From positions 217,334 through 281,333 of the forward strand of contig JAODTK010005387.1 in assembly GCA_026419785.1 (NCBI GenBank): a DNA stretch of 64,000 nt. The letters are read 5' to 3'. The translations under genes and the position numbers were made by a program. This document shows, in pieces, positions 3,973 to 63,400 of this stretch (the first letter of the stretch is position 1; every line of letters starts with the position of its first letter). The notes below the pieces were generated by a model. The model saw nothing but the letters and a program-made list of their open reading frames with translations. It did no database searches and was not told the DNA's origin. Source of the DNA: Sclerodactyla briareus (taxonomy: Eukaryota > Echinodermata > Holothuroidea > Dendrochirotida > Sclerodactylidae).

Positions 3973-4186
3973 CAAAATTTCCACGAAGGGGGCACCCCTC
4001 AGACCGCAATAAGTACCCCAAGCCCCCCCCCCGTCAAATGCCTAGGGTGATCCGTCACGAACTCACCCCCCCCCCTTCCCAACTCAAAATTACGTTCATA
4101 CGCCACTCCAATGATAAGGTGGTTTCTGCCGCATTCCATTTCACGGCGTTGTAATGACGTTTTACTAGTCAGTTTCGTGCATTATG

Positions 4187-4422
4187 CAGTGGCGGCTCCA
4201 GCCTTGGCAACTTAGGGGGCAATCAGGAGCAGGCAAATTTTCAGGAGGGGGGGGGAGGTTAAAGAGGAAGATACGACTCTTCTACAAAGAAATACCGAAC
4301 ATTGGCGCGATCGCTTGCGGGTCCAGGGGGAAAGCGCCAAAGCTTCCTTTCCTGGAATCCACTTGGAATTAGTGCGTTTGCAAGAATCCCAAACTGTGTC
4401 GTAGGCCGTAACGCAGCCACTG
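4187..4422 (+). mobile_element. Short non-autonomous hAT-like element (MITE)
   Basis: The left end reads CAGTGGCGGCTCCAG, a typical hAT-type terminus. The right end, read on the minus strand, begins CAGTGGCTGCG. The flanking 8-mers are GCATTATG (4179-4186) and TCATTAGG (4423-4430), which agree at 6 of 8 positions, as expected for an old 8-bp hAT target-site duplication. The 236-bp body has a G run (about 4246-4256) and no coding capacity. Confidence 0.6.
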
Positions 4423-4489
4423 TCATTAGGTCGTCTCTAGTGGCCTCGTAGGGGCCAGTGCGGTCGATCCTCCCACGGTCCCATATCCC

Positions 4490-4558
4490 CCCCCGCCAAA
4501 AAAAAAAAAAAAAAAAAAAAAATAATAATAATAATAATAATAATAGAATAATAATAAT
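4490..4558. repeat. C run, 25-base A run and (ATA)n microsatellite
   Basis: A C-rich stretch is followed directly by about 25 A (4498-4522) and an ATA repeat to about 4558. A poly-A passing into a triplet repeat could be a retroelement tail, but no element body is recognisable beside it. Confidence 0.7.
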
Positions 4559-4877
4559 CGGGCTCCGAGAATGAAGGCAAAATCGCAAATGTAAAACCTA
4601 CATGTATCTGCGTTGGAGCACATGATTTCATCTCAGTAATGGTGTGATCTAACACATTAATACACAAATTTCACTCAGATTCACATCCTTCACAACACTG
4701 CACGGGGTCACTGATCAGAGGCACTGCATGGCTGTACATGCGGGCCATTTGGCTACTCGTGAGAAGTTTCTTCAAAATTGCATGCTATGCCACGGCACAT
4801 CATGCGATGCATCTAGAACACAGTTTTTTCTCCTCCTCCGGGAGCGTAAATAAATTACAACCTGCCTTTTTGGTGAT

Positions 4878-5062
4878 CAAATGTTGGAGGGGGGTGGGGG
4901 TTCAGGCTTTTTGTCGTGGGGAGGGGGGGGGGGTCACGTAACCGTGATCCCCCGTAGCTGTTGCTACTGCTCTGGAATGAAATCCGTCAGTGGTGGCGCC
5001 AGGATTTCCCGTCAAAGTTCCCTGACGGGGTCGAGTTCCATGACGGGGTGGTCCAGGCCGAT
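4878..5062. repeat. G-run repeat fragments
   Basis: G runs occur at about 4889-4905 and 4919-4935. They are followed at about 4988 by CAGTGGTGGCGCCAGGAT, which resembles the hAT-like terminus at 4187. Ends cannot be paired. Confidence 0.35.
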
Positions 5063-5092
5063 CAAGATTCGAGCCTCCCTCCTGTCATTTTC

Positions 5093-6124
5093 ATTCCTTG
5101 ACTGAAGTCCAGGGAATCTATGCAGTCATGACAGTGTGGGTGTATGTTGTATGTAGTATGCATTAGTATGTATGTATGTATGTATGTATGTATGTTGTGG
5201 GACGCTGGCTTATAAGGGCATATGATCGACCCACCGAGGATGAAGCTCATACTGGTATTTGAGGGTCCCCACATGAGTACATGCCCGCTATTGTTTTGGG
5301 GTTCAGGTCAAACAGTCAGGTTCAAAGGTCATAAGAGGTAAAAGTCCGAAAAAATCTTGTGAAGAGGATAAGTCAGAATGCTTGGTCCAATCAAGCTGAA
5401 ATTTGGGGGTGTGCTTTTTTATGGGGATTAAGGAAACCAAGTGTTTTTATGTTAGAACAGGGTCCATTTGGGGGGAAACGCGGAGAAAAATATGAAAAAA
5501 ATATATTTGGGCAATTTTAGTTTTGAAGAGCATACCGACCCCACCTGGATAGATGAAGCTCATACTTGGTAGTTGGTATGTGATTCCATAATTTTTGAAT
5601 ACATAGGAACCTATTGTTTTGGCGTCAGGTCAAAGGTATTGAGGTAATAAGAGGTCTTAGTTATGAAAATATTGGTGAGAGGACAAGTCCAGAATGCTTG
5701 GTCCAATCACTCAATGCGGTGAGTATCTTTATATGGTGGACGTACAGAAAACTATTGTTTGTAGTGTAGACCAGGGGTAATTTTGGGGAAGAATGGGGAA
5801 CTTGTGAAAAATTGGTATTTTGGCCAATTTTATAAGCTTGTGCAGCGCATACCCGACCCCATCTGGATGAAGCTCGTACTTTGTGTTGTTTTCCCTCCCA
5901 TAATGAATACATATCCCCATTGTTTTTCGGGGTAGATCAAGGGCATCTAGTCTCATCAAGGTCCCATTCCTGCAAACCTTGTGGGCACGATAGTCCAGAC
6001 CTATTGGTTCCTATGGTGCTGGAGTTTGGCGTTTACATCCCATTATCCCATTGTTATTTAAATCTGGTCATAGGTTTGTTAGAATGAGTCAAGTGAATCA
6101 CTAAGCCTTTGTGCTTTCTGGTTT
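5093..6124 (+). repeat. Dispersed element A, copy 1: three ~313-bp units plus TATG microsatellite
   Basis: The left end can form a hairpin (ATTCCTTGAC at 5093-5102 against GTCCAGGGAAT at 5107-5117). It is followed by TATGCAGTCATG, then a TATG run (5166-5195), then three diverged tandem units. The units are recognised by GATGAAGCTCATACT-like anchors at 5239, 5552 and 5866, giving periods of 313 and 314 bp. The right end reads GTCAAGTGAATCACTAAGCC (from about 6088). The same parts in the same order occur inverted at 30163-31165. There is no credible protein. It is a dispersed repeat with an internal VNTR; the superfamily is unknown. Confidence 0.75.
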
Positions 6125-6259
6125 GCTTCTTTTCAAACTTTTCTCCAGTTTTTTCTTTAAAGCAAATAAAATACACATTGTGGACAACTTGTTATTCGTA
6201 GTGAACATCCTACTCATACCCCCGCCTCCGATCGGAAGACCACCCCCAACATGCTTTTG

Positions 6260-6902
6260 TCACATCCCGGCTGGATGCTTGTAATTCCCTTGTCATTGAT
6301 TTTGGTCTCCCTCTATCTTATTAACAAGCTTCAGCGAGTGCAGAACATTGCGGCTCGTCTTTTCTCTATTTCCTCGTCATCAGCATTCCCTCCACTACTA
6401 TACATGTTCATCACTTCACATTAAGGCCGAAAGTGCTTTTAAGATCCGTCTACTCATATATAATCAATCAACTAACTGCATGACTCCAAGTTTCATCTCA
6501 GAGCTTGTTTAGATCTGGCTGTTCTTCCAGATCCCTAGGTCCATTTTCCAAGCAAACTAGCATTAAAGTCACGTTGCTCAGTCCACCACGTTCTATCTAC
6601 GTTGTCCGTTCATTCACCTCGGCTGCGCCTCCCTTGGTTGGAATATCCCTTTTTTCCTGACGCTGTCCCGTCTGACTTCGACTGTAAATACTGTTTCAAG
6701 GCTGTCTTAAAACGTGTCTCCTCCACATCAGCCTTTCTGTCTGACTGATTCCCTGTTTATGGTCCTTTGTTGTGTGTTCCTCCTGCCTGTTTTTTTGCCG
6801 CTGCTTATCTTTTTTTTCTGTTTCTTTTTGCTCTGAAGCGCCATGAACGCTTCCTGCATTAGCGGCGCTATCAAGTCCTAACTACTTATTAATTATTACC
6901 AT
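6260..6902 (+). mobile_element. LINE 3' portion (L2/CR1-like)
   Basis: The translated plus strand gives SRLDACNSL at about 6265 (usual motif SRLDYCNSLL), a LQRVQN-like stretch near 6330, and SFTSAAPPL near 6612 (usual SFS-AAP-LWNSLP). A LKT-like stretch near 6705 corresponds to the FK-LKTHLF end. The 3' end contains AAGCGCCATGAACG and GCGGCGCTATCAAGT before an AT-rich tail, as in the 3' UTRs of many L2-like LINEs. Many stops and shifts mark it as an old 5'-truncated fossil. Confidence 0.75.
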
Positions 6903-7645
6903 CAGCAGCAGGCGCTCTGAGTGAGTAGAGTATGTTGCAGATTGCCCCCACTGGGGTAATTTTCGCATAACACTTCACAGGAATTTATGTTTACGCTACC
7001 ATGGGGGGTAACGGAACATTTGGTTCGCTAGAACACACTGCACACCGTTAACTCATTGTGCAATCCTCACCCGAAGAGTCTTTCTACAAGCTGCCAGGCC
7101 AAAAACAGTGTAACTTTTTTGGAATACGTCCTCCCTCCCGACTAAATTGTACATTAACCTCTTCCAGGGACATTTGGGGATATTCATGAGACTTGTGTAG
7201 CCTATTGAATATATACCACGATTGTACAGATTGTTGGAAGATAGGAGGACGGCCTACGCCTTTCAAACTCAACAATGGTCAGGGACGGTGCAAAACATGT
7301 TCTTTGAAATATTATGATTTCTTCGGGATTAATTCATGACTTAGATAAGACAGTGAGAATGATACAAACCTACCGTTACGCAATGACTTATGACATCACA
7401 TGGGTTGGTGTGGAAAAATACCTGCTCAATGCAAAATTCACTTTTTTCAAAACTCATAACCCGAGCACAAGAAGAAAAAAATCACACTTTTACTTATGAA
7501 GAAGTGAAAATCCGCAGTCTGGTGCTGTGTAAACTCCCCCCGTGACAACATGGACTCAAACAGTATGAGAACTCTAAAATGCTATGTTTGGGGTTATCAA
7601 ACTGGCTCTTTTCATCTATGCTAGCTCAAAGCACGCCAATGTAAT
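6903..7645. other. No gene recognised
   Basis: No domain, RNA gene or repeat could be identified. If the upstream exons of XRCC2 lie in this direction they may be here or further left, but I could not find the short first coding exon. Confidence 0.4.
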
Positions 7646-8629
7646 TATATCCCCGGGACACGGTAGTGTCCAGGGGGTTTCATGGTTTTGGCTGCAGTGC
7701 GCTGCACCGTCGTCCTCGGCTCCGTCTCCGTCTGCGTCTCCGCCGCCGCCGCCGCGTTTCTTGTTAGCGCTCAGCTCTCAACCATTGTCCGATTTACTTG
7801 AAACTTGGCACCCATGTTTGTCATGAATGAATCTCGGACAAGTTCGAAAGTGGGCGTGGCCACACCTCTCCAACGGCGGCCATCTTGGATTTTCGACGGA
7901 ACGCATTTTATTCTCGTTAACGCTCTAGCTCTCCAACGCATTGTCCGATTTACTTGAAACTTGGCACCCATGTTCGTCATGTGAAAATCTTGACCAAGTT
8001 CGAAAGTGGGCGTGGCCACACCCGTCCAACGGCGGCCATCTTGGATTTTTTTGACAAACTTACTTTTTTGCAGATATGCACGTTTCAGAACATGGCGATC
8101 GTTTTGGGACCCACTTTAATTTTCGCCCCTTGGACCCCACAGCAAACTATTGATTTTTTCGCAAAAATAACGCTTATCCGATTGACTTGAACTTGGTGTC
8201 GATCCGACATGAGGAATCTCAGACGATTTTGAAAGTGGGCGTAGCCACACCTCTCCAACGGCGGCCATCTTGGATTTTTTGACGATATGACTTTTTCGCA
8301 GATTGCGCGTTCGCGAATATGGTGATCGTTTTTGGACCGACTTGACGTTTTTCGCCTCACTGGTCACTAGCGCTTTATCCGGTTCACTTGAAACATGCAA
8401 TTTTCCAAACTTTCAGATTTGAACGAACTTGGTGGATGGGGCTACATTTGTTCCTCACGACGTTAGAAGGTCATTTTTCAAAGCCATCGTGGTCCCATAT
8501 TTTTCATAATTCTAGGCCCATTAACTTCCATGGATTGCAACAAAACTTGGTGATGCAGTTTATCTTGGTTTCTGAGCAAAATGCGGTGTTAGATACTTCT
8601 TCCCAATGATTGTCAAAAGCGGGGATATA
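7646..8629 (+). repeat. Dispersed element B, copy 1, with tandem sub-units
   Basis: The element is bounded by TATATCCCCG (7646-7655) and its inverted match CGGGGATATA (8620-8629). Near the left end is a short palindrome, GGACAC-GGTA-GTGTCC (7656-7671), then a CCG-triplet stretch (about 7738-7755). Three diverged sub-units follow. Each carries a TGAACTTGG-like phrase, then GTGGGCGTGGCCACAC or a one-base variant (about 7850, 8006 and 8235), then CGGCGGCCATCTTGGAT (7874, 8030 and 8258). The last third (about 8410-8629) is shared with 34900-35133. No protein is encoded. It lies upstream of the XRCC2 exon, possibly in its intron. Confidence 0.7.
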
Positions 8630-8754
8630 CACTTGGCGATTTAACCCCCTACCATTTCTAGTTTAAACAGAAAGCACGAGCTTAGTGATTCCTTGACTGC
8701 CTTCATAACCTTCGATTGCCTTTCCTTTGCCTATTCTCCTTTGAATTTTCCAAT

Positions 8755-8930
8755 GTTAACAAGCGCAGCCTTTGTGGCAACCGTTGCAGGTTAGATATTC
8801 GGAAGTATTTCCTCTCCCAAAGAGCTGATTGATGAGTGGAACAGCCTCCTCAAAGATGTTGTCCTTTCTGAGAGTGGTAATGCCCTCAAGGACAGTCTTG
8901 ATTTGTTTTCTCAGGAATTGTAAGCGCGTT
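8755..8930 (+). mobile_element. LINE pol C-terminal fragment (CR1-like)
   Basis: The plus strand encodes RLDIRKYFLSQR (about 8800-8826) and, after one frameshift, ELIDEWNSLLKDVVLSES and LKDSLDLF (about 8822-8915), followed by a TAA stop. This is the common LINE ending RLDVRKYFFSQRV-WNSLP-VV-A-SVN-FKN-LD. Only the last ~60 codons remain. It sits about 130 bp upstream of the XRCC2 exon, in intronic sequence. Confidence 0.8.
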
Positions 8931-9028
8931 CTTTAAGTTCTTGTTTTTCTTCTATTGGGGTGTAATGGTTTCATCAGGGTCGTTCATGCGGATTCTTTCC
9001 TTCCTGACCCTTTCTTACTATATCTACA

Positions 9029-9062
9029 ATAACCAAACTAAACTGTTTTCATTCTATTGCAG
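9029..9062 (+). other. Branch point and 3' splice site of the XRCC2 exon
   Basis: ACTAAAC (9037-9043) is a near-consensus branch site. It is followed by a T-rich tract and TTGCAG, ending at 9062. The next base starts codon CTT in phase 0, giving LFARLG, which lines up with the start of human XRCC2 exon 2 (LLARLEG, residue 14). The intron position therefore appears conserved. That also argues against a processed pseudogene. Confidence 0.75.
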
Positions 9063-10117
9063 CTTTTTGCCAGGCTTGGCTCCCGTCCTGTCTCTGGCAA
9101 GGCATGTGTCCTAACCTTTTCGAAGATGACTTCCCCAAACCCGGCCAGTTAGTGGAACTGTGTGGTGACAGCGGTACAGCAAAAACAGAAGCATTACTCA
9201 ACTTCATCGTGACATGTATCCTACCTCCCGAATGGATGGACTTCACGATTGGAGGCATCGGGACAGGTGTCGTTCTAGTGGACACACACTATCAGTTTTC
9301 GATGTCCGCTTTTTTCTCGTTAAATGTAGAAGAAGGTTGGCTTCTGTGAAAAATCCTCTCAAGATGATTAACAGAGAGAGTCGTGGTGATGGACCTACAG
9401 GCCATAGTTCGGATCGTCCGATCCCAAAACGGAGAGTACAAACGATGTGACGAAGAATGAGCAAACGCCAGATGCTACAGAGGTCGAGTCATTCATCAAG
9501 ACGTGTTTGGAGAAGCTGTACTTGATCCGATGTAACTCTAGCCAACAACTCCTCATTACCCTGCATTCGCTCGAAAATTGTCTTTGCGGAATCGGATCGA
9601 ATGAGCGTCCCTTCTGATCGACTCATGGTCCGCTTTCTACTGGATGGACCGAGCCGGGTTCGGCGACCAGATGTCTTTGCTGACGCTTTCCAGAGGAACT
9701 TGGCTAAGGCTCTGGGGAAGCTTGTTGTCGACAGTCAGATAACAGCCTTTGTTACGCGCGGATATCAAAAACCGAGTGGCAAATCCTAAAGTTCTCTGCA
9801 TCACCTGACTGGCTCGCCCTCCTTCCGGCAGCTGGTATAAACCCAGAAAAGATACTCAAATGTTCATGATTCAGTGCCAAAGACTGGAAAAATACCCTCA
9901 GCCACAGGTTCATTCTCGACAGAGATGAACAACCTGCCTGTTCGGCGGTCGCGTTAATGAGCACAACATCCTAAAACCAGAGAGCGGTTTTCACGGCGAC
10001 AAGAGTGTTACCCAAACCGGTCAAGACATGAAGTTCCTAATTTCCAGTAAAGGTTTTAGACTCATAAGGATGAAGGCGCCCAAGAGTCCGTCTTCTGGGT
10101 CCGTGCTGAATGTATAG
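9063..10117 (+). CDS. XRCC2: XRCC2-like RAD51 paralogue, large last exon, reading frame broken
   Basis: XRCC2 is a RecA-fold RAD51 paralogue that pairs with RAD51D in the BCDX2 complex and supports RAD51 loading in homologous recombination in the nucleus. Recognisable parts in order: LFARLG (9063); PNLFEDDFP (from 9110); a Walker A stretch GDSGTAKTE (about 9164-9190); CILPPEW; a Walker B region VVLVDTHYQFSM (about 9269-9304); KLYLIRCNSSQQLLITLHSL (about 9504-9563); SWSAFYWMDRAG (about 9623-9658); FQRNLAKALGKLVVDSQITA (about 9690-9749); DWKNTLSHRFIL (about 9882-9917); and MKFLISSKGFRL near the C-terminus (about 10028-10063). Stop at 10115-10117. The usual Walker A Gly before Lys is Ala. A linker of about 45 residues precedes VESFIK, longer than in human. 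The human exon 2/3 junction is not interrupted here. The pieces lie in frames 0,2,1,0,2,1,0,2, so there are seven shifts, all equal to one lost base, plus one TGA at 9867. Either an under-polished assembly or a pseudogene. The first exon was not found. Confidence 0.88.
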
Positions 10118-51806: not shown

Positions 51807-52463
51807 TCATTTACTGCCTAAATCCGCATTCCAAATGCTAGGTGGCAGTAAAGATACAACTCCTCTTAAGCACTGATTTCTCAGATGCATTTTCTTGACC
51901 TTGTCTGCAATATCTACAAAACGTAAACGACACAGCATTTCGCGGGATCTGTCGTTCGAATCTATCAAGAAAATATACTCTAAACCAGTATAAACGACAC
52001 ATATTTCCTGTAGCTGTGTAGGGCGTGATGGAAATAACATCTGATGCGTACTTTCCGTAAAACACCCCTTTAAGGAATCAAGATCTGAGACCCTTGTCAT
52101 CCTATACTGCCCAACTGTTTCTATTAACTGTGCCATTATAAGTGCATTTACTCTACCACAAATACTATAAATGGAAGTTTTCCTTCCATCGGTTGGGTAC
52201 AACCCTTGCAGGCGCCTCGGTCGGGATGATTGGTTCCGGCCAAAGCTCTTAAAACCCGGATCTTGGACCTTCTTGACAACAATCAAGCATACTCGAGCGT
52301 GTTGATTTCTTGATTTGCTCGTTATATTTGGCCCGACGCGATTGATTTTTTGAAAAACGGTAAATCCCATGAGGAATGCGGGTGGATTTTTGCTGTGCTT
52401 GAAAAGTGCACTGGCCATAATTCGCAAATATACAAATATGAATGGACTGCCGATGTTAGTCAC
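51807..52463 (-). CDS. Unassigned 218-codon open reading frame
   Basis: This is the longest open frame in the window. With about 40% GC, a stop-free run of this length is unlikely by chance (my rough estimate is a few percent for the whole window). I recognise no domain: no signal peptide, membrane segment or zinc-binding pattern is evident. The ATG at 52461-52463 is simply the first Met. Part of it (about 52195-52330) aligns with 56990-57125, next to the Penelope-like element, on the same strand and in the same frame, sharing KSFGRNQ and an LIV/LVI-KV stretch. A further 35-bp match (GGGATC-TGTCGTTCGAATCT) links 51940 with 51098. It may therefore be a fragment of a dispersed element rather than a host gene. 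Confidence 0.35.
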   Translation of the reverse strand: MTNIGSPFIFVYLRIMASALFKHSKNPPAFLMGFTVFQKINRVGPNITSKSRNQHARVCLIVVKKVQDPGFKSFGRNQSSRPRRLQGLYPTDGRKTSIYSICGRVNALIMAQLIETVGQYRMTRVSDLDSLKGCFTESTHQMLFPSRPTQLQEICVVYTGLEYIFLIDSNDRSREMLCRLRFVDIADKVKKMHLRNQCLRGVVSLLPPSIWNADLGSK

Positions 52464-54722: not shown

Positions 54723-55172
54723 TACAACGAGTCGCTTCACCCGCACGCACGGTTTGATGTGATATATCAACAAACGTTACGAGCAGACTAACTGGCGAAG
54801 AGACATAATGCCCGTCTACACTGCCTATCCACAGTTAAAATTAAAGAGACTATCGCAATCGCATTCGAACCAACTATTTCAATTCCTCCATCGGTCATTC
54901 ACCAAGACGGTAACCATTAAAATTGAAACTAAACTAACTAATGAAGACTACAACGAGTCGCTTCACCCGCACGCACGGTTTGATGTAATATATCAACAAA
55001 CGTTACGAACAGACTAACTGACGAAGAGACATAATGCCCGTCTACACTGCCTATCCACAGTTAAATAAAAGAGACTATCGCAATCGCATTCGAACCAACT
55101 ATTTCAATTCCTCCATCGGTCATTCACCAAGACGGTAACCATTAAAATTGAAAACTAAACTAACTACTGAAG
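54723..55172 (+). repeat. Near-identical 226-bp tandem duplication
   Basis: The unit starting TACAACGAGTCGCTTCACC at 54723 repeats at 54949, an offset of 226 bp. Both copies include GTCTACACTGCCTATCCAC and CACCAAGACGGTAACC. Only about half a dozen differences are visible, so the duplication is young, a haplotype merge or an assembly artefact. 226 is not a multiple of three and the sequence is not coding. Confidence 0.9.
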
Positions 55173-56949
55173 ACAAATCTGCCGTTCGTGAAGTAGGACC
55201 AAGATGCTGGAAAATGCAATGACTATGTCTTATCCATTAGGGGAGGTAAATACCTTATCGCATGAATGTGTGCCACCCGTGGGTGCCAGTATAGGAGAAT
55301 GTTACCATGATAACAAAAACAGAATGTTTTCGTAAAACAATTCTATTGGTGGAATGCAGGAGTGATGGTGCGCTTTCTTGAGCTTCGACTTCCGTCTTCC
55401 TCATCCATGGATTATTGCTCACGAAACAGCAAAGGGCACATTAACAGTTCCGTTGATCAATTTGATTCGCCAGCATTCGAGAGATAAACGCCTCAACTGA
55501 CCGGAAATACGTCTGACCTACCGGTATGTGTATCACTGGAAATAACACAGGAGTTAGGCTTCCCACGTGGGGGTTGAAAATAATCTACGCCGATTGATCC
55601 TATAAAAACTGAACGTTAAGAGTTCGTTGATGCGGGGAAACAGTAACATTGGCATGCCGGAACTTTACGGGAAAGTATCTCATAAAAAGGAAATATTATA
55701 CAAGTTATTGTAAAATAACGTTTAAAAGAGGCACTAGTTTACACACACATTAGTGTGGCGCCAGTTGGCTTGGTGAATGCACTGTTGGTGTTGGTAGACA
55801 TATGAGGGTCATATTCACATTGAACTCGAACAGGCGGACAGGCAGTACTAATACTGACCTTTTTGTTTTCCACACTATTCCCTGAAAGTTTGTCGTCGAT
55901 TTTAAACCTGTTCGTGTAACACTATCTTCGGAAGCGATATCTTATGAACCACTCAGCCCTGCTCCACCAATCTGTTCTGGTTAAATTGAACTCCTTCCCA
56001 TAATTGTTTTCTATGCCCAATTTTGTTGTCCATGTGAGGCCTCGAGGTATTTTATTCTCATAAATCCAATCCACAAAAAGTAAAAAAAAGGTAGTTACTG
56101 CGATAAACCATCAGGGCGATCAAATGGCTAGCGTTTCTGGCCTGAGAGCATCAGTGTATTTCCAAAAACTCTCCTGAACTTCCAATTTAATTATACACAT
56201 ATACCGTTACACAAGTTCCCATCTGCGTAGGGTTTCTCGGTTACCATAAAAGATTCCTTGTATATTTTGCACCGTCTTAAATGTTGGAAAGCGAGTTAAA
56301 AAAATCGCTTCGGCCGTTACATCTTTCCAATGTTCTTTCGCAAAGGTTGTGGGAATCCGATTTTTGTTTTTAGTATTGAGATTTGAAATAGTAGTTGCTT
56401 TCAATGAGAAGGCCTAACGGTTCTAGTGCTTCCACTGTTCATGGATCACCACCGGTCGTCGTGAATATTTTTCTTGTGTGTCATGAAAGTGGAAAAGACA
56501 AAATATAACGCTGGTAGTTATTATACCACTCGTGGAATTATTTGTTATTTACTAAAGAAAATTGTCAGGTCGATTTCGATTCCATTCTATGTTGACTAAA
56601 GATTGATATATCAGATCAACAATCATCACTTAATAATTGGCCCATGCTCTACGAAAGTCAAAGTTTTAGCAATGTAATGTCATTGTAATAAACTGTATAT
56701 TGTCAGTATTAAATCTGACATCTATGGACTATTAGGCCTATACTTTCTGTTTCACTGTTTTGATTTCATGACGAGCGAAGTGGTTCGAAGAGAATGAACA
56801 AGAATAACTGTTTTTTCTATTCTAACCCTAAGTCTGTATATAAAAGGTGACGCCAGACGTAAGCTCCAGTACTTTCCCCTAAGTTCATCTCTACAATTGC
56901 TCACTCTCCGCTGTGATTCCCGAACCGCCTCTCTTCTAAAACTAAATCT
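55173..56949. other. No gene recognised
   Basis: No domain, RNA gene or clear repeat was identified. Confidence 0.4.
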
Positions 56950-58550
56950 TTAATCGAAGGTCAACTTTGATTGGTTCTTCAAATATTTAGAGGTGCCTTT
57001 AGTAGGAATCATTTTGGTTCCGGCCGAAGCTTTTTAAAGTCTGTATCTTGGCGACTTTCTGTATCACCAATCAAACAGGCCTCTTCTCTTTCGCTTCATT
57101 TCCAGTATATTTCGCCTCGTCGGATTGTGCGATAACTCTCAAAGTAAGGGTAGGTTCTAATTTACCCAACTGAAGGTCCTGTGTGTACACCTCCTGCATT
57201 AGTACGCCCTAGTCCTATGGTCAAGTAATATTCTGTAATAGATTTCCTCGACTCATCGGGTGTAGAATTACTTCATCGTAGAAACCTTGGTTTACATTTA
57301 AAACTGACTTTCTATTCCAAGCTAAAGTCGACACATTCTCACACTTTGTACTTGACAGATGCAACTGACCCACTTACGAAATTTTCATTCTCACTTCGAA
57401 TGTGGATTTTTAATTGTGTAATAGAATGATTACGAAATAAATCCATAAATTGTAATGAGGGAGCGATATCATGGCACCAAATAGAGAAGATATCATTAAT
57501 TATCCTGAAGTAATTAATTGCTTTAGGAGAAGCGGCCACAGATTCTTTCTAACTAAATCCATAAATACTACTTTGGCTAACTGGGGGGCGCTATCTTTGT
57601 ATGGTACCCATGGCAGAATCATCAATCTGCCAAATCCTCGTTGAAAGTGCCGTTGAAAGCGGAAAAATTGTTCTTCAGATGGAATTTGCGATGCCATATC
57701 TTTTGAAATTCACTTCATTATTGTGCTTTCTGACAATTCCTCGCAGGCAACGATCCCTTCATCGTGAGGGATGTTTGTGTAGATGAATGTGACGTCCATA
57801 GTTACATATATCTACTACTCATTATCATTACCAGTGAGATAATCATAGTAATTAATGTCATATGCGAGTGTTCCAGGTTTCTTAGAAACAAGGGTTGGAA
57901 GTATATGCATATTGGGTAATGTATAGAAAGTACCCAACTTAGGGTTCTTAGGATAGGTGACTCACTTTTCAAGAGGACCGGAGACAGTCTTGGCCAACAA
58001 CTGGTTCCGTGCTGAAGAATACTCGGGAAGGAATCACTTTTACCTACTGCTTTGTAGAACGCTTCGTCCTTGAGTTGTCTCTCGGCCTCCTCGATATAGC
58101 TTGTTGACGTCCATACTACGGTGGCCCCTCCTCTTATCAGCAGGCGGATGATGAGTCCGAACTCCCGCGTAGACGTTGATGCGGTCGTTTCGTCCCGGAA
58201 GAGTTTACGGGTGTTTTCACATGTTCTCCGCCATGAAACGATCAAGATGAATCTTACAGTAGATGCGAACGATCGATAAAAGGGGTTGCGTTCCCACCGG
58301 GGAGGCCAACTGGGAACCCGGCTCGATGATGCTTTCTTGTGAGTCTGGAATTGTAGTCACCATTCCGGTCGTGGAAGTATTCACAGTTTAACCCTCCTGG
58401 TAAAGTTCTGCATATCGAACACCACTCCTAGGATCCCTCCTGCGCGAGGGACAGAACGAGAGTCCTCCGCGAAGTACCGAATCCTCATCTGCAGTGATGT
58501 GTGACTAAAAAGATTGATCACGTAGGTGCAGTCTGGGTTTTTTAGAAGGA
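56950..58550 (-). mobile_element. Penelope-like element: reverse-transcriptase part
   Basis: On the minus strand, from right to left, the sequence gives YVINLFSHTSL (about 58535), GGATVVW and YIEEAERQLKDEAFY (about 58130-58050), [14 protein letters not shown] (about 57795-57755), an AMG motif (about 57605), INDIFSIWCH (about 57500-57470), and DESRKSIT (about 57250). These are the conserved blocks of Penelope RT in the right order: GGA-VV then EA-RQL, YTNIPH-EG, the GTAMG block and Y-DDIF-IW. In the last, the usual first Asp of the DD pair is Asn. Several reading-frame breaks and stops make it non-functional. The left end, about 56990-57125, is shared with the 51.8-kb ORF. It is followed on the right by a GIY-YIG part on the opposite strand. 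Confidence 0.85.
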
Positions 58551-58739
58551 GCTCCTCCTTGAATCATATTCCTCAGTTTAGTGAGTTTTCGTCTGGAACA
58601 CTGGTCGATATTGCGGTTGTAGATGTAGTCCTACGACGACACGGGGTTGACGGGTGGGGAACCCGCGTACTCCCCTCTGGGCCACTTCGTTCGCAAGCAA
58701 CATGCTCCTACTCCACAGTCAGTGGAAAATCCGAGCAAT

Positions 58740-59075
58740 TGAGCGACATACCGCAGTCGTTCTCAAGCTTCCCAAACGGCAAATCGTGAACTGGCTGACA
58801 CCACAACCTCCTTCAAAAGTTCCAGACATCAAAAGTCTACAACAGCAGACATACCATTGAGACTGTTTCTCCAAAAACCTGATCTACCTAAATGACTCAA
58901 CACCGATCGGCCATTAAAACAAAACCCGTCTCAACCGGTGCAAAACATTTTCATCTCGCCGGCCACTCTGTTGAAAGCCTGAGAGTGATTGCCATTAACC
59001 AAACAGTGCCTGATCGACAAATCACCCAAGGCAAAGGAGAACTCCAGGAGCTGAACCTGAAACCACAGCACTCTT
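58740..59075 (+). mobile_element. Penelope-like element: GIY-YIG endonuclease end
   Basis: The plus strand encodes FSKNLIYL (about 58870-58890), then HRSAI (about 58900), KPVSTGAKHFHLAGHSVESL (about 58920-58980) and a DRQITQGKGELQELNLKPQ stretch (to about 59065). This fits the C-terminal GIY-YIG nuclease of Penelope-like elements (C-SKN-IYLI, HR, HF-LPGHS, R--E--WI--L-T--P-GLN). The central YVGET part is missing. Its 5' side abuts the inverted RT part at 58550, suggesting one insertion with an inverted 5' portion. Confidence 0.7.
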
Positions 59076-60055
59076 CGCTTGACTTGGGAAACGAACCTGC
59101 CATCTCAGTTTCAGTGCTTCTTCATTACTTCTGTAATCAACTTCTTCGAAGAGCTAGTATCGCTCGAGCTTTGCCCCGAATCATCTCATGTTCTATTTAC
59201 ATCCACCTTCCTAGCTAAAATTGCTATTTCGTATCTCATTCGAGATCCAGCCATTAAACGACGCATTGTTGTTGTATAGTATGCAATTGGCAGTTCTGAA
59301 AATGTTGGAAGGCGTCATTTCCAAGAGGGACCATAAACCGTCTGATTGTCTAACAATTGTTGAATTATTTGAATTTGAACGATTGTACTTTCTTCACGCT
59401 GATTCTAGACTTAGAACAATGCGATCGGATAAATTACACCTATACCAGTACATAACACGTTAACCTTTTTTAATGCCATTTTTAATGCACAAAAAATCCT
59501 CATTACATGTATTTTACTGGTCCATATACTATTAGTTTTACTATTTATTAACCTATCACGTCTATTTTGATAGGCCACGTGTGTGTAATCGCTTTATAGT
59601 CTAGGCCCTTCAAATACATATCGCGCATTGTGGTACATTTACCTAGTGGTGGAGTGGGGGCACGCATGTGTAAATTCCGGTGCATGATTCCTCCAACTAC
59701 GTACATCTACCCCTGGTGGACGTTGTCGCAAATATACCAGCTAATTGGAAGCAATTTACTGTTTAATTGTTGAAACAGGAAAAATTCGATTTTGCCGGAG
59801 AACAGACTAAAAGCAATCGCAAACACATTTTCTTCTCGCAATTTCCGTGTCTCTCGCCTCATTTGGCAGGTTTTGCTCGGGGCCTCGCTTCCTGTTTCGT
59901 TTCGTCGTCTCATATGTCCCAGGGAAGCAACCGAACTTCCCTGACATTTTCAATTCAATATCCTTTTGCGGTAATGTTAATGAAGATGTGGTCAGCAGTG
60001 TTTTAACGGGTACATTGGCGAATAGATCGTTTGGAAACAGTCAAAAGTGCAATAA
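59076..60055. other. No gene recognised
   Basis: No domain or RNA gene identified. The first few hundred bases may be the 3' UTR of the Penelope-like element. Confidence 0.35.
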
Positions 60056-60150: not shown

Positions 60151-60254
60151 TTACCATTTGGAAATTCCTTCCACTCATAGTTTACCTTTTTTTTTTACTG
60201 CAATTATTCTAAAGCATTTACCACCATGGTTGAATTGGGCCTGGTGGGCGAGCG

Positions 60255-60490
60255 AAACTAATTGTTTTCTAGTACAATGGGTGGAGTTAAGGTCAGCTGC
60301 GGGATGAGATTACGAAAAATAATTTGGCCAGTCGTGTTGGTGAAAACACATATCTTGAATTTGTGAATATCTTCAACTTTGAGTATGCCTAGTAAGCTAC
60401 TGTGTAGAGCATTAGTTGGGAAACGGTAATGCTTGAATGTCATTGTCTTCATGATTCTATTTTGCAATTCGCACTGCTTTAGGACGCGAA
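60255..60490 (-). mobile_element. LINE pol fragment
   Basis: On the minus strand the frame gives VLKQCELQNRIMKTM, then HYRFPTNALHSSL, LGILKVEDIHKFKICVF and NLIPQL, with the stop at 60258-60260. This matches the LINE pattern LQ--Q-RIIR-I----Y--HT-PL---L-ILK--DI---KI--F-YK---N-LP. Only this part of the C-terminal region is left; the RT core is absent. Confidence 0.7.
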
Positions 60491-63400
60491 GAGCCAGTCA
60501 TACGTAATATTTTCAAACCTTAGGCACTTTAGAGTATACTAAGAGTAAAGATAAAATCTGAATAATTATCTAAATGATCTAAAACTAATGATAATTCTAA
60601 AATAATCATGTTAAGTCTAAACATGATATTCTCTGGATATCGTATCGATTCCGACGTATACCATTATACAAACCGTGTCGAGTTTACCGCATCAAATTGA
60701 AGTAACGGCAACGCACGAGTGGAGTTCTATTGAGTTGTACCTCGCATTCCCACATCACGTTCTTATCGATGCCCATTGCAAATTAAGCGTTATCGTGGGA
60801 AAAGGGGAAAATTTTTTAACGGCATGACCTACTTCCTTGATTGAATTTCGCTGCAGAAGAGGCAGCAATTACATCCGTTATCCTCGTGCGAGCTTGCGAT
60901 GTCGCCTTCTGAGGCCATAGGTTGAGTCAATCCCTGAGGGTCAGGCTTATTTGACATCAGGTCTTGTCGTTCATGCTCTTTTAAGCTCCACAAATCCTAA
61001 TCAGACCTGTTCTCCAGCCGTTAGGAGGCTGTCGTGTGATGACTAGCGTGAAAAGGACAATTTTATTGAAAGAACTTCTCTGCAAACGAAGCCTACTCGA
61101 TAAAATGAAGACGGACTAAGGTTTATATGCAGATACCAAAAGCCAGTTGCTTGTTGGCCAACTTCGCAATAGTTTAACAAAACGACGCTGTTATCCGTAC
61201 TTCCTAACTCTATGAGCATCGTGTCGAAGATGACACGAACAGATATTATGCAATGTAGTCCTACTCGTAAGATAATTTCATACATTCTGTTCCTTACAAT
61301 CTGTACAATATACGAATAGCTTCGAAGATGTTTCAACACAAACTTGGGTCGTATTAACGGTTTAATTTTCCACCATCGTAGCGAAATTTGAATAGCATGA
61401 CTCCATTTCTTCGTATTAGTGCTGTTTCGAAAAATAATCACTTGACAGCGTTAGGCCCGAGGTAACCGCGTACGTACTATACCAAGCCCAATTGATTGTA
61501 AGCAGCAATGTACTATTGTGGCTAATAATTCCATTTATTTAAAGGAGAACTTCCTCTTGCCTCTCCCACTTACAGTTTTAAGCCCATATAATTGTTGACT
61601 AACCAACCAGTAAATTCTCGTATTCGGCGGAAATACATTACTGCATGATTGGCAATTTTCAGCTGGATACAGGTACTGCTGTCCATATACCGTGGTCCTT
61701 CCAGGGCGGGCAATTCAAAGCTACTGAAGGCTAACGAGCTCGTCTGTCCTTTGAAAGACTCATAGAATATAAAGTACCAACATAATGAGTTGTTAACTTC
61801 TTTAAATCATTCACTCAAGAAAAACAAGGAAAAAAATAACTGACACATCGAACGTTGTGGGATTGAATGAGGTCCTATCTTAATGTATAGATCCATTTTA
61901 TAACAAGGCATCTCGTACCACTTACGTGGCCAGAACTGTGCCTCTATCCCGTTTCTCTGAGAAATATTGGGTCTATTTAAAGAACAACAACACCTCTGCA
62001 TCACGATGACTGTCCTAACATACTTCCTCTCTTCCTGTCCGATCACGGTCGTCATATTTCATATCTGTCCTAGCCAAAACGACTCTGAGGCAGACCAAGC
62101 ATATAATGGGAAGTGAATACTATAGGCGTCAGTACTTGCAGTACAGTGGAGTATACGCCCAAGAAGATCGTTGTTCGATTTAAAAGGTTAACAAAGTTCG
62201 TCAAAGCCAACTTGCACTACTTCTGTGTATCAGGACTTTTGTGATTTACATTGTTTCCACCTTTCCTCTCTGAAGCCCTTCATCACACTCCGCATAATCC
62301 TGCTAGCGCATATCGCGGAAATAATTACAACACGCGTGCCCCTCTCTCATATTCCATATGTTTATTATCCCAAACATGAAGCTGTGACATCAAGAAGGAT
62401 AGTTACCGCCACAGTGCGCGATCTGAAAACACTAAACCTTCAGGAATCCAAGATAGCTCTATTTAATTTTCGGTTTTTCGCCGGTGTGATGACTGCGGCC
62501 CCATTAAACATTCATGGTTTCATCAACTTCAACGTCCGCCCGATTAATCATTCTTACTAAGGACAGCTTCTACAGTGCCTGGTTCTCGTCCGTCAATGTG
62601 TAATAGAGTATCAATATAAAAGTCAGGTGTACCCTGCTTTTCTTATTGAAGGAATATAAATTTCCCTAGTTGTTTCCAACGTGGATAGGAGTGTCCTTTA
62701 ACGACAGGTAGGGGCGTAAATTCGGAGTGTAGTGGTAAGTGTGGATTGGGCTTGGTGACACCCGGTCTCTGGCCGCAGAAAATTTGGGAGATAAAATTTG
62801 CGAAAATGTCAGTCTCCAGGCACATCCTCCTCCCCCCCCCCCCCCCATTGAAATGTGTGGCATTTGTTTTATGCGCCCCTGTTTTGCAGGGTGAAGAAAT
62901 AAAATGGAAATTTATGTTTGACTTCTTGTACTCATTTTCTTCTGTAGAATGCTAGGGATTAAAGTTGGCGTTATCGAATGAAACGACATGAATCCTAACC
63001 GCGCGCAAACGGCTCTTCCCCCGCTCTTACTCCGTCATACCAAGAACGACGCACCTACTTCAGTATTTAAGCAGAGGTGTTAGTAAAGGTGTATTCTCTA
63101 CTCACCTGGTGTACATTCCTTCATTGAGAAAACCAACATACCATCATGTTTTAGCCAGAATCGAATGTTTCTATTCTATTTTTGTTTGTCTAATTCAGGT
63201 CTCAAGGGGGGATATATTCATGTGGGCACATAACACTACCTCCGCTTGTTCTGATGTTGTTATGGGCGCACGTGTCATTTGTCCTTTCTGTGCCGTATAT
63301 TCCCGTCTACGTGTCGGATTGTTTTCTTCCACGTATACTGTCACGATTTGCTTATTCAGCACGACACCGTTCCGGGCCTACTGACCGCCGCGTGCTGATA

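Follow-up and report, generated by a model that had tools for sequence, protein, structure and literature searches.

The window, by which we mean the whole 64,000-base stretch of DNA analysed here, carries an XRCC2 locus on its plus strand at 9063-10117 in which the reading frame is broken again and again, and this raises the question of whether the animal has lost the gene or whether the breaks belong to the assembly. We are confident that an ordinary XRCC2 gene, probably intact, has its main coding exon here and that the breaks are insertions and deletions in the assembly. Under this explanation the XRCC2 frames would be broken by assembly indels, conserved genes used as controls showing about 2.5 to 8 frame breaks per kb; the errors would stem from insufficiently polished long reads, and XRCC2 would be intact in the animal itself. 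Gene loss of XRCC2 is not demonstrated.

The plus strand of 9063-10117 was translated in all three frames and aligned, with an aligner that permits one-base frame changes, to the human XRCC2 sequence, which is identical to chain D of PDB entry 8ouy. The homology is genuine: a single large exon can be matched to human XRCC2 piece by piece, with the frame changing between pieces, and at a frame-change penalty of -8 the pieces are placed in order along human residues 13 to 257. When a 77-residue piece (9110-9340) was compared with PDB sequences it matched XRCC2 chains only (four of four distinct sequences at E up to 0.1, the best at 3.4e-7), so that XRCC2 is preferred over other RAD51 paralogues. 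With these matches, and with four pieces that outscore all 1000 shuffles, the assignment to XRCC2 in the sequence-only reading holds. As in the known RAD51 paralogue (PDB 8ouy chain D, 8faz chain X), the Walker A region, which reads GDSGTAKT in the window and GPEGTGKT in human XRCC2, and the Walker B region are in place. The window version differs from the human protein in having 45 middle residues (23 and 22) without a human counterpart in the alignment, in its frames being broken as assembled, and in that exon 1 was not found. No single open reading frame spans the exon as assembled, and one motif scan for exon 1 on the plus strand before 9063, upstream of the acceptor, returned one unrelated match.

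The features of the locus are given below. Frames are stated as position modulo 3, and the support for a piece is its alignment score against those of 1000 shuffles. Codon use was judged with a model trained on 1,787 codons of actin, HSP70 and tubulin from the same assembly.

9042 to 9062, plus strand: pyrimidine-rich stretch and AG splice acceptor before the XRCC2 exon, from the sequence as read
9063 to 9107, plus strand: XRCC2 piece in frame 0 (LFARLGSR...); score 20, with 62 of 1000 shuffles as good
9110 to 9331, plus strand: frame-2 XRCC2 piece that includes the Walker A region; identity to human in 29 of 75 aligned columns, none of 1000 shuffles scoring as high
9334 to 9440, plus strand: stretch without assignable homology; read in frame 1, 9334-9411 does no better than 812 of 1000 shuffles
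9444 to 9602, plus strand: frame-0 XRCC2 piece; none of 1000 shuffles scores as high, codon use P 0.0023
9605 to 9679, plus strand: frame-2 XRCC2 piece that includes the Walker B region (LLIDSWSAFYWMDR); none of 1000 shuffles scores as high, codon use P 0.0017 (9611-9679)
9682 to 9786, plus strand: frame-1 XRCC2 piece; none of 1000 shuffles scores as high (9682-9790), codon use P 0.018
9867 to 9869, plus strand: TGA in frame 0, a frame that is open from 9706 to this TGA
9879 to 9962, plus strand: frame-0 XRCC2 piece (KDWKNTLSHR...); raw score 48 at penalty -8, with identity in 8 of 29 aligned columns
9959 to 10060, plus strand: probable C-terminal XRCC2 piece in frame 2; codon use P 0.0053

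The AG of the splice acceptor, at 9061-9062, directly precedes the residue aligned to residue 14 of human XRCC2. Exon 1 of the human gene presumably ends at codon 13, and if that is right the intron stands at the human intron position, which argues against a processed copy. A second, intact XRCC2 elsewhere in the genome, which the sequence-only reading had proposed to look for, was found neither by DNA search nor by protein search of the assembly, both of which score the best candidates only and skip introns; all five matches from the protein search were the locus at 9063-10117 itself.

The four pieces that beat all 1000 shuffles (9110-9331, 9444-9602, 9605-9679 and 9682-9790, in frames 2, 0, 2 and 1) carry the homology, and in each of them the frame picked by homology is also the frame with the best codon use. 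The codon-use path alone, by itself, leaves most of 9110-9331 uncalled as coding. Toward the ends the matches thin out. The frame-0 piece at 9063-9107 is weak alone and is helped by the acceptor, and the frame-0 piece near 9861-9940 is weak as well (score 33), with a codon-use P of 0.065 for 9879-9958 in that frame. For the C-terminal stretch 9965-10075 the match to human XRCC2 lacks significance, 594 of 1000 shuffles scoring as high. In the middle of the exon, 9332-9444 is free of stops in frame 1 only, against a window background in which, for this length, a given frame is open at 14.6% of places and at least one of the three at 37.5%. Codon use over 9334-9440 favors frame 2, weakly (P 0.058 versus 0.10 for frame 1), and at switch costs of 4, 5 and 6, though not of 8, the codon-use path assigns 9372-9438 to frame 2 followed by frame 0, but frame 2 is interrupted by stops at 9347 and 9365. 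One extra base between 9331 and 9444, taking frame 2 directly to frame 0, was also considered and was rejected, as this step would run through stops where frame 1 is open.

The sequence-only reading had followed the homology through frames 0,2,1,0,2,1,0,2, each step amounting to one missing base. Such a path exists and is free of stops except for the TGA at 9867, but only three of its seven links are anchored by strong pieces or by open frames between them, both of its ends are weak, one of its middle pieces is without homology, and the directions called by the aligner depend on the penalty for a frame change (three missing and six extra bases at -10, four and two at -12, four and none at -16). 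Moreover, frames reveal the net change modulo 3 only, such that a net step of -1 is also what two extra bases would produce. The odds that had been put forward are correct as arithmetic: for seven of seven shifts in one direction P is 0.016 at even odds and 0.029 under the mix of directions found in the control genes described below, while five of six or better has P 0.22 or 0.27. Because the one-way pattern was chosen after it had been seen, we rate it as a mild oddity; all of the XRCC2 shifts may go one way, and this is not firm.

Whether such breaks are peculiar to XRCC2 was judged from conserved genes in the same assembly (319,486,128 bases in 3,171 contigs), which was searched whole for actin, HSP70 and tubulin. 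From these matches 23 control regions on five other contigs were aligned to human proteins. Actin gave 16 matches, 10 of them with loci, and eight regions (L002-L009) were used; L010 and L011 overlap others, and the six matches without loci were left out. HSP70 gave 14 loci, from which ten regions (L012-L016) were used, L017-L021 being overlapping and L022-L025 being left out as mostly more diverged. Tubulin gave seven loci, with five regions of L031, L032, L033 and L035 used, the diverged L034 and L036 left out, and L037 overlapping L031. A break was counted as strict when at least 5 of the 8 columns on each side were identical, a rule that 12 of the 64 breaks called in the controls failed. 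Two intact E. coli genes, 910 codons in all, showed no break under the same aligner and rule when aligned to human references (dnaK, 583 codons at 52% identity; gapA, 327 codons at 67% identity); as these genes are without introns, this control tests the aligner and not splice boundaries.

Conserved genes on all five contigs are broken in the same manner as XRCC2. Taken together, actin, HSP70 and tubulin have 52 strict breaks in 8,961 aligned coding bases, or 5.8 per kb when pooled, and these are spread over the families as 7 in 2,829 bases of actin (2.5 per kb), 13 in 2,199 bases of HSP70 (5.9 per kb) and 32 in 3,933 bases of tubulin (8.1 per kb). At least one strict break is present in 15 of the 23 regions and on five of five contigs. 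Over their aligned codons the eight actin regions share 86-98% identity with human beta-actin, more than long-dead copies would keep, and so they do not look like old pseudogenes. The closeness of actin and tubulin to the human proteins, along with the introns, points to an animal as the source of the DNA. The identity of XRCC2 to its human counterpart is too low for the strict rule, and the seven shifts of the sequence-only reading were compared instead: at the pooled rate 1,055 bases should hold 6.1 breaks, with a probability of 0.41 for seven or more and of 0.002 for none. Disabling changes in XRCC2 are thus not above the assembly background (6.1 expected versus 7 claimed). Given the similar rate of breaks in actin, tubulin and HSP70, those in XRCC2 are most likely base errors of the assembly, a reading limited by the facts that the rate differs between gene families and that eight of the 23 control regions have no strict break. 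The earlier preference for assembly errors over slow decay is supported by this comparison, and the suspicion that other coding evidence in the assembly is similarly hidden is borne out.

A true unitary pseudogene, that is, XRCC2 lost in this animal with the breaks being real mutations, a loss that could hide in the noise, would account for the several frame breaks, for the TGA at 9867 in frame 0 and for the failure to find a second copy. However, the density of breaks is that of essential genes in the same assembly, and homology together with coding-like codon use persists piece by piece. The TGA had been singled out as the main evidence for real loss. It is present, and its placing in frame 0 is possible in that this frame is open from 9706, yet with a penalty of -8 the aligner assigns 9839-9877 to frame 2, moving into frame 0 at 9879. 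The coding frame there may therefore be frame 2, and the TGA would then lie outside it; it may also be a base error, in-frame stops being found in the controls too, one in each of two tubulin regions (2 in 8,961 bases). As such, the TGA is not firm evidence of loss, and we regard a unitary pseudogene as improbable.

The version of the artefact that had been proposed in the sequence-only reading, namely systematic single-base deletions that all go in one direction, draws on the path being stop-free except for the TGA, on frame 1 being the sole open frame over 9332-9444, on the four missing and no extra bases called by the aligner at -16, and on the low probability of seven of seven (0.016 to 0.029). 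It is not supported by the controls, where 31 of the 52 strict breaks are extra bases and 21 are missing ones (two-sided binomial P 0.21), which speaks against it for the assembly as a whole. Within the locus, of the eight pieces three either match human XRCC2 weakly or lack homology to it, the directions change with the penalty, and a net -1 step may equally stem from two extra bases. Breaks within 4 bases of a run of at least four equal bases make up 12 of the 52, compared with 10% of control positions, a mild enrichment; given that these comprise 9 of the 31 extra-base breaks and 3 of the 21 missing-base breaks, systematic deletion is not seen in the control genes. We consider this exact version very unlikely. 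That conserved genes on five contigs are broken could also be taken to mean that the breaks are real across several essential genes and that the cell corrects them by frameshifting, RNA editing or another frame-correcting process. The breaks go in both directions, however, and inspection by eye of the 64 printed break contexts revealed no common motif. We know of no animal that corrects such breaks by frameshifting or RNA editing, and we give this explanation hardly any credence.

Returning to assembly errors as the preferred explanation, PMC12007338 describes how short insertions and deletions in long-read assemblies fragment genes and inflate pseudogene counts, and the present case would be alike in that short indels break genes. 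The genomes treated in PMC12007338 are small, and the errors detected affect less than 0.05% of the genome and are mostly tied to homopolymers; the present assembly differs from them in having breaks at about 0.6% of coding bases that are only mildly linked to homopolymers. The XRCC2 breaks are most likely ordinary and mainly a warning about the assembly. The XRCC2 locus does not show that XRCC2 was lost, and neither broken frames nor short open frames nor absent domain matches can count as evidence of gene loss in this assembly. Claims of lost or decayed genes from this genome require reads or transcripts first.

Searches of the assembly for the Pfam Rad51 family and for COX1 each gave 0 matches, and so neither another RAD51 paralogue nor a mitochondrial contig was usable as a control. 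GTP_EFTU gave three matches. Matches to families are few for an animal genome (Rad51 0, GTP_EFTU 3, tubulin 7, HSP70 14), a shortage to which frequent frame breaks, short exons or an incomplete assembly would lead.

Over parts of the window, Pfam searches of one plus-strand frame over 6,000 bases from 9001, 5,000 from 15001 and 1,116 from 9002 found nothing at the limits used, and neither did searches of the three minus frames of 4001-6000, 6001-9000 and 57001-60000 together with three open frames. Searches of the window for tRNA genes and Rfam families gave no match. An overlapping contig at the end of the window was sought as a direct measure of the error rate; among the 50 matches listed, one is the window itself, one is a nearby copy and the rest are repeats at 69-90% identity. 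Dispersed repeats lie at about 58720-59280 and 60190-60560, with many copies at 69-90% identity on other contigs. Coding-like pieces without a Pfam match are found on the minus strand at 57740-58563, where a 15-letter piece resembles Penelope-like reverse transcriptase. At 51807-52463 on the minus strand lies the longest of the window's listed open frames (218 residues, GTG start), which likewise has no Pfam match, and the same is true of a coding-like piece (IKTVLEGITTLRKDNIFEEAVPLINQL) at 8822-8902, which lies on the strand opposite to the XRCC2 exon and 160 bases before it. Two direct copies of about 175 bases, at 54774-54948 and 55000-55174, are 97% identical to each other.
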